NCBI RefSeq assembly: GCF_013410745.1 | Contig: NZ_JACCFY010000001.1 | Span: 1,240,001 to 1,304,000, forward strand | Direction: 5' to 3' | From: Nesterenkonia xinjiangensis | GTDB taxonomy: Bacteria; Actinomycetota; Actinomycetes; Actinomycetales; Micrococcaceae | DNA length: 64,000 nt | Shown: piece after piece, positions 26,163-32,206 of the stretch | How positions within the stretch are numbered: position 1 is the stretch's first letter | Layout of the letters: each line of letters begins with the position of its first letter | The notes under the pieces: model-generated | Seen by the model: only the letters and a program-made list of their open reading frames with translations | What the model was told of the DNA's origin: nothing | Database searches by the model: none | Translations under genes and position numbers: made by a program

Positions 26163-27245
26163 ATGCCTGCGCGGATCATCTCCATCGGGACGGCGCTGCC
26201 GGAGACCTCGGCGCCGCAGCCGGATCTGCGCGCCTTCTTCGCCGGGCAGCCCGGCGCGGACCGACTCACGCGCCGCCTCATCGGGGGCGCCTTCGACGCG
26301 TCGGGGATCGAGACGCGGCACACCGTGCTGGAGGGCCTTGCCGGCTCGCCCGACGGGGTGTTCATCGCTGAGGACGGCACGCTGCTGTCACCCACGACCG
26401 GCGTCCGCAACGACCTCTACCGGAGTGCCGCGCCTCCGCTGGCCGCGACAGCCGCCCGCGACGCCCTGACCCGCGGCGCCGTCGCCGCCGATCAGATCAC
26501 CCACGTGATCACGGTGTCCTGCACCGGGTTCTTCGCTCCCGGCCTCGACTACCACCTCGTGCGTGATCTCGGCCTGTCCGAGGACGTCGAACGCACTCAC
26601 CTGGGCTTCATGGGCTGCTCGGCGGCGCTGCCGGCGCTGCGCCTGGCCTCGCAGATCGCCGAGGGACGCCCCCGCGCCGTCGTCCTGGTCGTGTGCCTGG
26701 AGCTGTGCTCGCTCCACGTCCGCGAGACCTCGGACCCGGAGCAGGTGGTGGCGGCCTCCGTGTTCGCCGACGGGGCGGCCGCGGCGCTGGTCACCGCCGG
26801 CGACATCCCCGGCGACCCGGGCGGGCTGGTCCTGGACCGTTTCGCCACTGCGCTGACCAGGGAGGGCGAGTCGGACATGTCCTGGACCATCGGGGACCAT
26901 GGCTTCCAGATGACGCTCTCGGCCGAGGTCCCGCGGATCATCGGACGCGAGATCCGTGACGCCGTGGACCGGTTCCTCGGCGACGATCCCCCTCCGGGCA
27001 TCTGGGCGGTCCACCCCGGCGGGCGCAGCGTCCTCGATCGGGTCGAGACGGGACTCGGGCTGGAGCCCGCGGCCCTGCACGCCTCCCGTGCGGTGCTGAG
27101 GGACTGCGGCAACATGTCCAGCGCGACGATCCTGTTCATCCTGCGACGGTTGCTGGAGGACCCGGCCGTCGAGGGGCCGATCGCCGCCCTCGCCTTCGGA
27201 CCGGGCCTGACCGTGGAGTCCGCGCTGATGCACAGGAAGAGGTGA
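26163..27245 (+). CDS. Type III polyketide synthase
   Basis: This 360-residue chalcone-synthase-like enzyme condenses an acyl-CoA starter with malonyl-CoA units and cyclises the product. The catalytic triad is visible: Cys120 in VSCTGFFAPGLD, His284 in AVHPGG and Asn317 in CGNMSS. The start at 26163 gives a normal N-terminus (MPARIISIGTALPE). The next genes encode a methyltransferase and an FAD hydroxylase with overlapping ends, as in the Streptomyces griseus srsA-srsB-srsC operon for methylated phenolic lipids. An alkylresorcinol or alkylpyrone product is therefore plausible but not proven. Confidence 0.93.
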   Translation: MPARIISIGTALPETSAPQPDLRAFFAGQPGADRLTRRLIGGAFDASGIETRHTVLEGLAGSPDGVFIAEDGTLLSPTTGVRNDLYRSAAPPLAATAARDALTRGAVAADQITHVITVSCTGFFAPGLDYHLVRDLGLSEDVERTHLGFMGCSAALPALRLASQIAEGRPRAVVLVVCLELCSLHVRETSDPEQVVAASVFADGAAAALVTAGDIPGDPGGLVLDRFATALTREGESDMSWTIGDHGFQMTLSAEVPRIIGREIRDAVDRFLGDDPPPGIWAVHPGGRSVLDRVETGLGLEPAALHASRAVLRDCGNMSSATILFILRRLLEDPAVEGPIAALAFGPGLTVESALMHRKR

Positions 27246-27949
27246 CACCTTCCCCGATGGACCTCTCGCGACGCGATGACCTGCTGCGCGAACTCATGGA
27301 CGATCCCGACTGCGACCCCGAGCGGCTGCACGCGACACTTCGCCGCTTCGGGATCGTCAACCGTGTGGTCTCCGGCTGGGACACCGTCTACCGCAGACAT
27401 CTCCGTCCGGTGCTGGCCGGCCTGGGCCGACCGGCTCGGGTGCTCGATCTCGGCTCGGGCGGCGGGGACGTCATCGCGCGCCTGGCCGGCCTGGCGGTCC
27501 GGGACCGCCTCGCCGTGCACTGGACAGGAGCCGATCCGGACCCCCGGGCGCACCGGGCGGCATGCGCACGGGAGGTCCCCGGAGCCACGTTCGTCTGCGC
27601 CGACGCCGAGACCCTCCTCTCCCGAGGCGAGGCCTTCGACGTCGTGATCTCCAACCATGTGCTCCACCACCTGGAGGCGCCCGAGCTGGTCGAGTTCACC
27701 GGCGCCTCCCGGGCGCTCTCCTCCGGCGTGGTGCTGCACAATGACATCGCCCGGAGCCGGCGGGCCTACTGGCTCTACGCCGCCGGCATCACCCCGCTGG
27801 CCCCAGGGACGTTCCTGCGGGTGGACGGGCTGCGCTCGATCCGCCGCAGCCACCGGCGCGAGGAGCTCGCGACCCACCTGGGGCCGGAGTGGACCGTCAC
27901 CTCGCCGGCACCGTTCCGGCTGCTCGCCGAGGCGTCGGGCCATGCCTGA
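27242..27949 (+). CDS. Class I SAM-dependent methyltransferase
   Basis: This 235-residue methyltransferase has the SAM-binding motif VLDLGSGGGDVIARLA, the acidic end of strand 2 (TGADPDP), and a FDVVISNHVLHHL motif. The N-terminal segment (RRFGIVNRVVSGWDTVYRRH) resembles methyltransferases that act on small phenolic or quinone products. The GTG start overlaps the synthase stop by 4 bp and has AGGAAGAG directly upstream, so translation is coupled. It probably methylates the polyketide product. Whether the target is oxygen or carbon cannot be read from the sequence. Confidence 0.87.
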   Translation: MTPSPMDLSRRDDLLRELMDDPDCDPERLHATLRRFGIVNRVVSGWDTVYRRHLRPVLAGLGRPARVLDLGSGGGDVIARLAGLAVRDRLAVHWTGADPDPRAHRAACAREVPGATFVCADAETLLSRGEAFDVVISNHVLHHLEAPELVEFTGASRALSSGVVLHNDIARSRRAYWLYAAGITPLAPGTFLRVDGLRSIRRSHRREELATHLGPEWTVTSPAPFRLLAEASGHA

Positions 27950-30038: not shown

Positions 30039-31592
30039 TCACCTCTCCAGCGTGGTGGACAGCGCCTGCTCCTTCACGAAGAGCAGGAACCCCGTGGCCA
30101 GGAGCGCCAGCGGCACCAGCGCGAGGAACAGCGGCATCAGGGCGTCGTTGTAGGACTCCACCACCAGGGTGTGGACCGGCTCGGGCAGCTCGCCGACCAG
30201 CGCGGGTGTCAGCGAGCTGGCTCCGCCCTCTCCGACGGCGTCGGCAGACAGTTTTCCGGAGAGGGACTGGGTGAGCCGGGTGGCGAAGAGCGAACCGATC
30301 ACCGCCGATCCCAGGGTGGCGCCCACCTGCCGGAAGTAGTTCTGCCCGGCGGTGGCGGTGCCCACGAAGCGCAGGGCGAAGGAGTTCTGCGCCACCAGCG
30401 TCAGCAGCTGCATGGTGGCGCCCAGACCCAGACCCATCACACCCAGGTACAGGCAGACGAGCACGACGGGCGAGTCGGCATGGACAGTGGAGAGCAGACC
30501 GAGCCCGGCGGCGGTGATCACGCTGCCGATGATCATGAAGTGCCTGTACCGGCCGGTCAGTGTGACCCGACGCCCCACGACGATCGAAGTGATCAGCAGG
30601 GTGCCCATCATCGGGATCATCAGCAGCCCGGCCTCGGCGGGACTGTAGCCGGTGACCATCTGCAGATAGGTGGGCATATAGCCCAGGGCACCGAACATCG
30701 CCACGCCGGTGATCAGCCCGGCGGCCATCGTGAGGTTGAAGTTGCGATTGCGGAACAGCATCAGTGGCATGACCGGCTCAGCAGCCCGCGACTCCACCCA
30801 GATGAACAGCCCGGAGGCGACCAGGGCGAGTGCGATCAGCGAGAGGATCACCGGTGAAGTCCAGGCGAAGTCGCCGCCGCCCCACGTCGCCACGAGCACG
30901 ACGGCGGTGGTGACACCGCCCAGCAGCGCCATCCCCCAGTAGTCGATGCGGCCGTTCTCGGCACGCGGATGCCGGGGCAGCTTCAGCAGCAGGGCGATCC
31001 CGAGCAGGGCGAGCACTCCCAGGGGCACGTTCATCCAGAGGGTCCAGCGCCAGCCCGGTCCGTCGGTCAGCCAGCCGCCCAGCAGCGGCCCCGCCACCGA
31101 GGAGAAGGCGAACACCCCGCCCATCACGCCCATGTAGCGGCCACGCTCCCGTGCAGGGACGACGTCGGCGATGGTCGCCTGGGAGAGGATCATCAGGCCG
31201 CCGCCGCCGATGCCCTGCACCACGCGGGCTGCGATGAGCACGTCCATGGACGGAGCGGCGCCGGCCAGCGCGGAGCCGAGGACGAACACCACGATGGCGA
31301 TCAGGAAGAGCGGCTTGCGGCCGAACATGTCACCGAGCTTGCCGTAGACCGGCATCATGATGGTCGAGGCCAGGATGAAGGCGGTGATCACCCAGGCCAT
31401 GTGCTCGACCCCGTGCAGCTCTCCGACGATGGTCGGCAGGGCGGTGGCGAGCACGGTCTGGCTCAGCGAGGCCATGAGCATCGCGATCATCAGCGCGGTG
31501 AAGATCAGGACCAGGCCGCGCCCTCGGGGAAGAGGGACGTCCGGGGTCGGCGTGGCGTGCCTCTGCTGCGCGGTGGAGTCGGGGGTTTTCAT
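30039..31592 (-). CDS. MFS multidrug exporter, DHA2 family
   Basis: This 517-residue exporter has 14 predicted helices. Motif A appears as [14 protein letters not shown], and the [17 protein letters not shown] segment in helix 1 is typical of the EmrB/QacA-like group. Its start overlaps the stop of the TetR gene by 4 bp (ATGA), so the regulator and exporter form one operon. It lies beside the type III polyketide genes and could export their product, or confer drug resistance independently. Confidence 0.9.
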
Positions 31593-32206
31593 CGTGTGGT
31601 GTCGACGACCTCTCGGAACATGGCGATGGACTCGTCGAGGAACTCACGCGGGTCCTCGGCGGAGGATTCTTGGTATCGGTGGAAGGCGTACTTGGCGATG
31701 ACGCCGGAGAGCATGAGCAGCGCCTCGAGACGGGCCCCGTCACCGGGAGCGGCCAGCGCGACATCGTCACCGTCCTCCACGCGGGCCTGGATGACTTCCG
31801 CGACGATCCGCTCCACCTCGGAGAGCAGGCGGAGCACGCGCCTCTGCAGGCTGGGATGTTCACCGATGATGCGGCGACGCTGCGGGGATGTGGCCTCCGG
31901 GATCGCGGTGCGCACCACGGCCACGAAGAGGTGCACCACGCGGGTCAGCTCGTCCTCGTCCGAGGTGCGGAAGCGCTCGATGTCGCCCTCGGAGACCTCG
32001 GGGGTCCGGGTGCCGAGGATCGCATCCTCCTTGGTGGGGAAATAGTTGAAGAAGGTGCGTCGTGAGACGCCGGCCCGGGCGGCGATGGCCTCCACCGCGG
32101 CCTCCTGCGGCCCCTCCTCCCAGGCGATCGCGTGGGCGGCCTCGTGGACGGCGTTCCAGGTGTCGAGGCGATTGCGCTCGCGTTGAGAGATCGTTGATTC
32201 GTGCAC
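31589..32206 (-). CDS. TetR family repressor of the adjacent MFS exporter
   Basis: This 205-residue regulator has the helix-turn-helix [20 protein letters not shown], with the FFNYF recognition helix common in exporter repressors. The GTG start at 32206 follows a TATAGT box by exactly 6 nt and lacks a Shine-Dalgarno, so the mRNA should be leaderless. The 28-bp dyad at 32219-32246 covers the promoter, so the protein probably represses its own operon and is released by a drug or the exported compound. Confidence 0.9.

Follow-up and report, generated by a model that had tools for sequence, protein, structure and literature searches.

Does a UbiA-type prenyltransferase encoded beside a type III polyketide synthase (PKS) act on the polyketide, or is it only a neighbour? 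This question is raised by six genes of a 3.57 Mb Nesterenkonia genome, found in a window of 64,000 nucleotides, the whole stretch of DNA analysed here. Genome-mining tools often label type III PKS loci 'alkylresorcinol', and to our knowledge only one cluster for prenylated phenolic lipids has been characterised so far. We consider it probable that the cluster encodes a meroterpenoid phenolic-lipid pathway, in which a polyketide phenol would be made and then prenylated by UbiA; the most likely product would be a phenolic or hydroquinone lipid that carries methyl and prenyl groups. The assignment of UbiA to the polyketide pathway draws on gene content, motifs, co-occurrence, shared phylogeny and the lack of an obvious housekeeping role, each of which is considered below.

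A PKS trio converges on a UbiA gene

The features of the locus are the following (positions are those of the window):

26163..27245, + strand: type III polyketide synthase, 360 aa (Pfam PF00195/PF02797; Cys/His/Asn triad; orthologues align from the ATG)
27242..27949, + strand: class I SAM methyltransferase of the NCBIfam NF004851 / PRK06202 family (262 bits, cut-off 243), second in the trio
27942..29114, + strand: FAD-dependent aromatic hydroxylase, FAD_binding_3, UbiH-like superfamily (PF01494, 132 bits), third in the trio
29141..30022, - strand: UbiA-superfamily prenyltransferase, convergent with the trio (PF01040, 97 bits; Asp motifs; PKS co-occurrence)
30039..31592, - strand: DHA2-family MFS efflux transporter (TIGR00711, above cut-off)
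31589..32239, - strand: TetR-family regulator (PF00440)
32219..32246, no strand: near-perfect palindrome TGCACGAGTGCAAT/ATTGCACCAGTGCA where the TetR gene begins, a candidate TetR operator

Profile matches and coordinates confirm all six genes, in position and family, as the first-pass annotation had described them, and with E values between 1e-27 and 1e-78 these assignments are not a matter of chance. The genes are tightly packed: the methyltransferase start overlaps the PKS end by 4 nt, the FAD gene start overlaps the methyltransferase end by 8 nt, and the UbiA gene, on the opposite strand, ends only 26 nt past the end of the FAD gene. On that strand, a gap of 16 nt separates the MFS end from the UbiA start, and the TetR end overlaps the MFS start by 4 nt.

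The synthase carries both the N- and C-terminal Chal_sti_synt domains (PF00195, PF02797), its Cys-His-Asn triad lines up with the solved type III PKSs 2h84 and 4b0n, and alignments with its homologues begin at residue 1 when translation starts at 26163. The tunnel residues were considered as a guide to starter chain length; alignments with PKS11 mapped no residue that switches between resorcinol and pyrone formation with confidence. The FAD enzyme matches the UbiH/UbiF family below the cut-off, and the methyltransferase, whose place as the second trio gene is conserved across relatives, has weak similarity to UbiG.

The trio had been likened to srsA-B-C, the alkylresorcinol/alkylquinone genes of Streptomyces griseus. 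The likeness holds for the gene order (PKS, methyltransferase, FAD hydroxylase) and the overlapping operon, but it breaks down at the methyltransferase: SrsB is a membrane enzyme of the ICMT family (PMC6669644), whereas the enzyme found here is a class I SAM methyltransferase, which rules out an srs operon in the strict sense. A match to PF04140 (ICMT) is absent from this Nesterenkonia genome and from four of the five other sampled genomes with the same convergent cassette, the fifth (G472) having one weak match elsewhere in the genome. The ICMT type, its gene adjoining the PKS, occurs in further families of this order as well as in presumed Streptomyces and Mycobacterium genomes. Furthermore, descriptions of srs list three genes, none of them for a prenyltransferase, whereas the Nesterenkonia cluster adds UbiA.

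UbiA travels with the synthase

The UbiA protein scores 97 bits against PF01040 (cut-off 34.2) and keeps both Asp-rich motifs, NDAIDAERD (NDxxDxxxD) and DLDDD, which in this family bind Mg-diphosphate; residues N68, D69, D72 and D76 as well as D190 and D194 are invariant among 14 diverse relatives. Of 30 genomes of Nesterenkonia, 24 carry PKS and UbiA together and 6 have neither, and in all 24 the two genes lie about 3 kb apart. At the level of the order, a profile of the UbiA subfamily matches 97 of 396 genomes, and a type III PKS is found in 96 of these 97 compared with 77 of the 299 UbiA-negative genomes (Fisher p ~2e-42, with shared ancestry ignored); since only the best-ranking candidates of each genome were scored in this search, some genes counted as absent may have been overlooked. 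The sole UbiA-positive genome among the 97 without a type III PKS match is G532. Of the 78 pairs whose positions were compared, 60 lie within 6 kb of each other, and 17 of the 18 genomes with an unlinked UbiA have a type III PKS elsewhere. The joint presence in 24 of 24 and joint absence in 6 of 6 Nesterenkonia genomes, together with the 96 of 97 in the order, support a place for UbiA in the polyketide pathway. The observation that the first-pass annotation had named as speaking against its proposal, a UbiA gene occurring without the synthase among relatives, is not the pattern seen in the genus, in the order or among the unlinked copies.

In three loci (L190, L191 and L195), the unlinked subfamily member adjoins a leucyl-tRNA synthetase-like gene, with the PKS elsewhere in each genome. 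A role of the unlinked copies as carotenoid elongases was rejected, as no carotenoid genes were recognised by eye among the translated neighbours. Plasmid-borne spread of UbiA was likewise set aside, given a single distant Streptomyces match.

But could the cluster UbiA be a housekeeping enzyme of menaquinone, heme O or carotenoid synthesis that lies beside the cluster by chance? UbiA genes occur in every genome searched, and membership of the family does not by itself reveal the substrate. However, the same genome has a separate CtaB (heme O synthase) and a MenA, both equivalog-level matches, and another UbiA gene, next to what on inspection resembles a fragment of a phytoene desaturase gene, which leaves the cluster UbiA without an obvious housekeeping job and led us to discard this role. 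The subfamily profile scores these three other UbiA genes at less than 10 bits, and the cluster UbiA is missing from six Nesterenkonia genomes, making a housekeeping function very improbable.

A second alternative leaves UbiA to act on some other substrate; the trio would then make an alkyl quinone with no prenyl group, comparable to the respiratory polyketide quinones known from mycobacteria and Streptomyces. The trio has the gene order of pkqABC (PMC9927152, PMC5916927), the PKS10 polyketide quinone operon of Mycobacterium smegmatis, and such PKS-methyltransferase-oxidoreductase trios are conserved in actinomycetes (PMC9927152). Moreover, the trio has no linked UbiA across most of the Micrococcaceae: a PKS is present in 101 of 149 genomes of this family, the trio is common in genera besides Nesterenkonia, and no UbiA was found near it in the loci examined from these other genera, indicating that prenylation is not required for the trio to function. 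The mycobacterial system differs from the Nesterenkonia cluster in that the sampled f22 genomes (taken as Mycobacterium and its kin) lack a UbiA-subfamily match and have ICMT adjoining the PKS. Against the unprenylated product stand the co-occurrence in the order, the all-or-none distribution of the PKS-UbiA pair in the genus, and the linkage of UbiA to three different PKS cassettes. We therefore regard it as unlikely, and favour prenylation of the polyketide by UbiA.

Three cassettes and a shared history

The three cassettes accompanied by the UbiA subfamily are a convergent one with the class I methyltransferase, a divergent one with ICMT, and an agq/los-like one (L198). In the first class, the PKS-methyltransferase-FAD trio faces UbiA in all 18 loci fetched; the same arrangement is seen in 48 of 80 named loci, some from genomes also represented among the 18, and mainly in Microbacterium and Nesterenkonia, but also in Clavibacter, Leifsonia and Serinibacter. 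In the second class, UbiA is divergent from a distant PKS, which is followed by ICMT and FAD genes. The third is represented by L198, from a Micromonospora-like genome, in which UbiA is divergent from a UbiG-like methyltransferase, a flavoprotein and the PKS; this flavoprotein reads as an acyl-CoA-dehydrogenase type, though the coordinates used gave no Pfam match for it.

The trees tell a consistent story for both partners. The cluster PKS falls into a clade of 19 UbiA-positive sequences, the rest of which are from Microbacteriaceae (SH-aLRT 100), and groups apart from the Micrococcaceae PKSs without a linked UbiA. Mapped on the PKS tree, UbiA presence needs 4 changes, compared with 17 when shuffled. 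In the UbiA tree, Nesterenkonia is nested among Microbacteriaceae, matching the placement of the PKS, and the convergent-cassette clade is separate from one that goes with the other two cassettes. Since both PKS and UbiA nest in the Microbacteriaceae instead of in their own family, the set appears to have moved together, and the simplest reading of the trees would be that the four genes were horizontally transferred at once and have been co-inherited for a long time since. The convergent four-gene cassette, common to Microbacterium and other Microbacteriaceae, would accordingly have been acquired by Nesterenkonia as a unit. A network study of Micrococcaceae gene clusters, in which those of Nesterenkonia group apart (PMC11078813), fits such a transfer.

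A proposed pathway and its known relatives

How would these enzymes work together? In the sequence of steps that we propose, the type III PKS would lengthen an acyl-CoA, probably one derived from a fatty acid, with malonyl-CoA units and close the chain into a phenol of the resorcinol type. Ring hydroxylation by the FAD enzyme and methylation by the class I methyltransferase would lead to a methoxy- or methyl-(hydro)quinone, and the membrane-bound UbiA would place an isoprenyl chain on a ring carbon or oxygen. In this scheme the starter, the prenyl length and its site of attachment, the order of the steps and every chemical conversion are inferred.

The characterised precedent for a prenylated polyketide of this kind is AGQ of Actinoplanes missouriensis (PMC3569393, PMC4044012, PMC7692728, PMC10896814). 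As papers citing the primary agq work describe it, agqA-D direct the synthesis of 6-alkyl-4-O-dihydrogeranyl-2-methoxyhydroquinones (PMC3569393), O-prenylation of the polyketide by the agq enzyme is reported in vitro (PMC4044012), and orthologous sets are present in Phytohabitans, where AGQ compounds were not observed (PMC7692728). As far as the agq set is described there, it shares with the Nesterenkonia cluster a type III PKS, a methyltransferase, an oxygenase and a UbiA-type prenyltransferase. Type III PKS loci of Micromonospora have been termed agq-like by others (PMC8698034). In the los locus of Micromonospora endolithica, the source of loseolamycins, UbiA, methyltransferase and type III PKS genes are adjacent as well (PMC7587189); its neighbours are those of L198, and its flavoprotein is annotated as an acyl-CoA-dehydrogenase type (PMC7587189). 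There, losA was the only gene activated, and the alkylresorcinols reported all lack a prenyl group (PMC7587189).

The nearest stand-in for AgqD is the UbiA of L198, which is 40% identical to that of the Nesterenkonia cluster. The two loci share only the UbiA subfamily. The L198 PKS belongs to another clade, and a UbiG-like methyltransferase, an acyl-CoA-dehydrogenase-type flavoprotein and a divergent UbiA stand where Nesterenkonia has the NF004851 methyltransferase, FAD_binding_3 and a convergent UbiA; los likewise differs from the Nesterenkonia cluster in PKS lineage and tailoring genes. Judged by its genes, the hybrid of polyketide and prenyl chain is thus a type already known through agq, and the Nesterenkonia set, which shares this logic and the UbiA subfamily with the agq/los-like stand-in but differs from it in PKS lineage, methyltransferase, hydroxylase and gene arrangement, would be a variant of that type. 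No description of a UbiA-linked cassette with a class I methyltransferase was found in the literature searched.

The same gene content allows another product: a long polyprenyl chain, attached by UbiA to the ring of a polyketide made from a short starter, would yield a ubiquinone-like electron carrier with a polyketide-derived ring. Together, UbiA, the weakly UbiG-like methyltransferase and the UbiH-like FAD hydroxylase resemble the logic of ubiquinone synthesis. The AGQ precedent points the other way, as its ring bears an alkyl chain and its prenyl group is a dihydrogeranyl of only C10 (PMC3569393). We consider such a lipoquinone, with an aromatic head supplied by the PKS and a polyprenyl tail added by UbiA, improbable; if true, it would be a respiratory or membrane quinone not recognised before, spread across Microbacteriaceae, Nesterenkonia and other actinobacteria. 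By the co-occurrence described above, in about a quarter of the sampled genomes of the order (97 of 396), one UbiA subfamily is tied to type III PKS, across three tailoring cassettes. If this tie holds, many supposed alkylresorcinol producers would make prenylated phenolic lipids.

The transporter is a local neighbour

The MFS gene had been proposed as a dedicated exporter of the product, a role that its distribution does not support. Orthologues (about 54% identity or more) are present in 72 of 149 Micrococcaceae genomes, mostly away from the PKS, which they adjoin in three: this genome and two of another genus. Thirteen of the 72 have no full-length PKS match, two of these with PKS fragments or weak matches, so that about 11-13 carry the transporter without an intact type III PKS. 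In seven further genomes, several of them close kin, the orthologue lies 15-31 kb from the PKS, which seems to be more often than expected by chance on chromosomes of this size. Two PKS loci of another Micrococcaceae genus (g25; L046 and L071) have TetR-MFS homologues directly upstream of the PKS, with 59-60% identity in the MFS, an arrangement different from that of the Nesterenkonia cluster.

The TetR-MFS pair looks like a recent, lineage-specific neighbour outside the conserved core. TetR and MFS look like a single operon adjacent to UbiA, and the MFS is probably co-transcribed with UbiA, which in this lineage may share its regulation with the pair. In Nesterenkonia sp. PF2B19 (L218), the closest named relative by UbiA (87%), the MFS is kept beside UbiA, and a palindrome similar to that at the TetR start lies at the equivalent place (L218:3573-3604). 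In this draft genome, the MFS (L218:4231-5782) and FAD (6777-7879) genes look split, through frameshifts or assembly errors.

On the other side of the cluster, an amidohydrolase and an NCS1-type nucleobase permease gene (22668-25979) adjoin the PKS on the opposite strand. They are likely a pair for uptake and use, and the same two genes also lie beside the PKS in Nesterenkonia sp. PF2B19.
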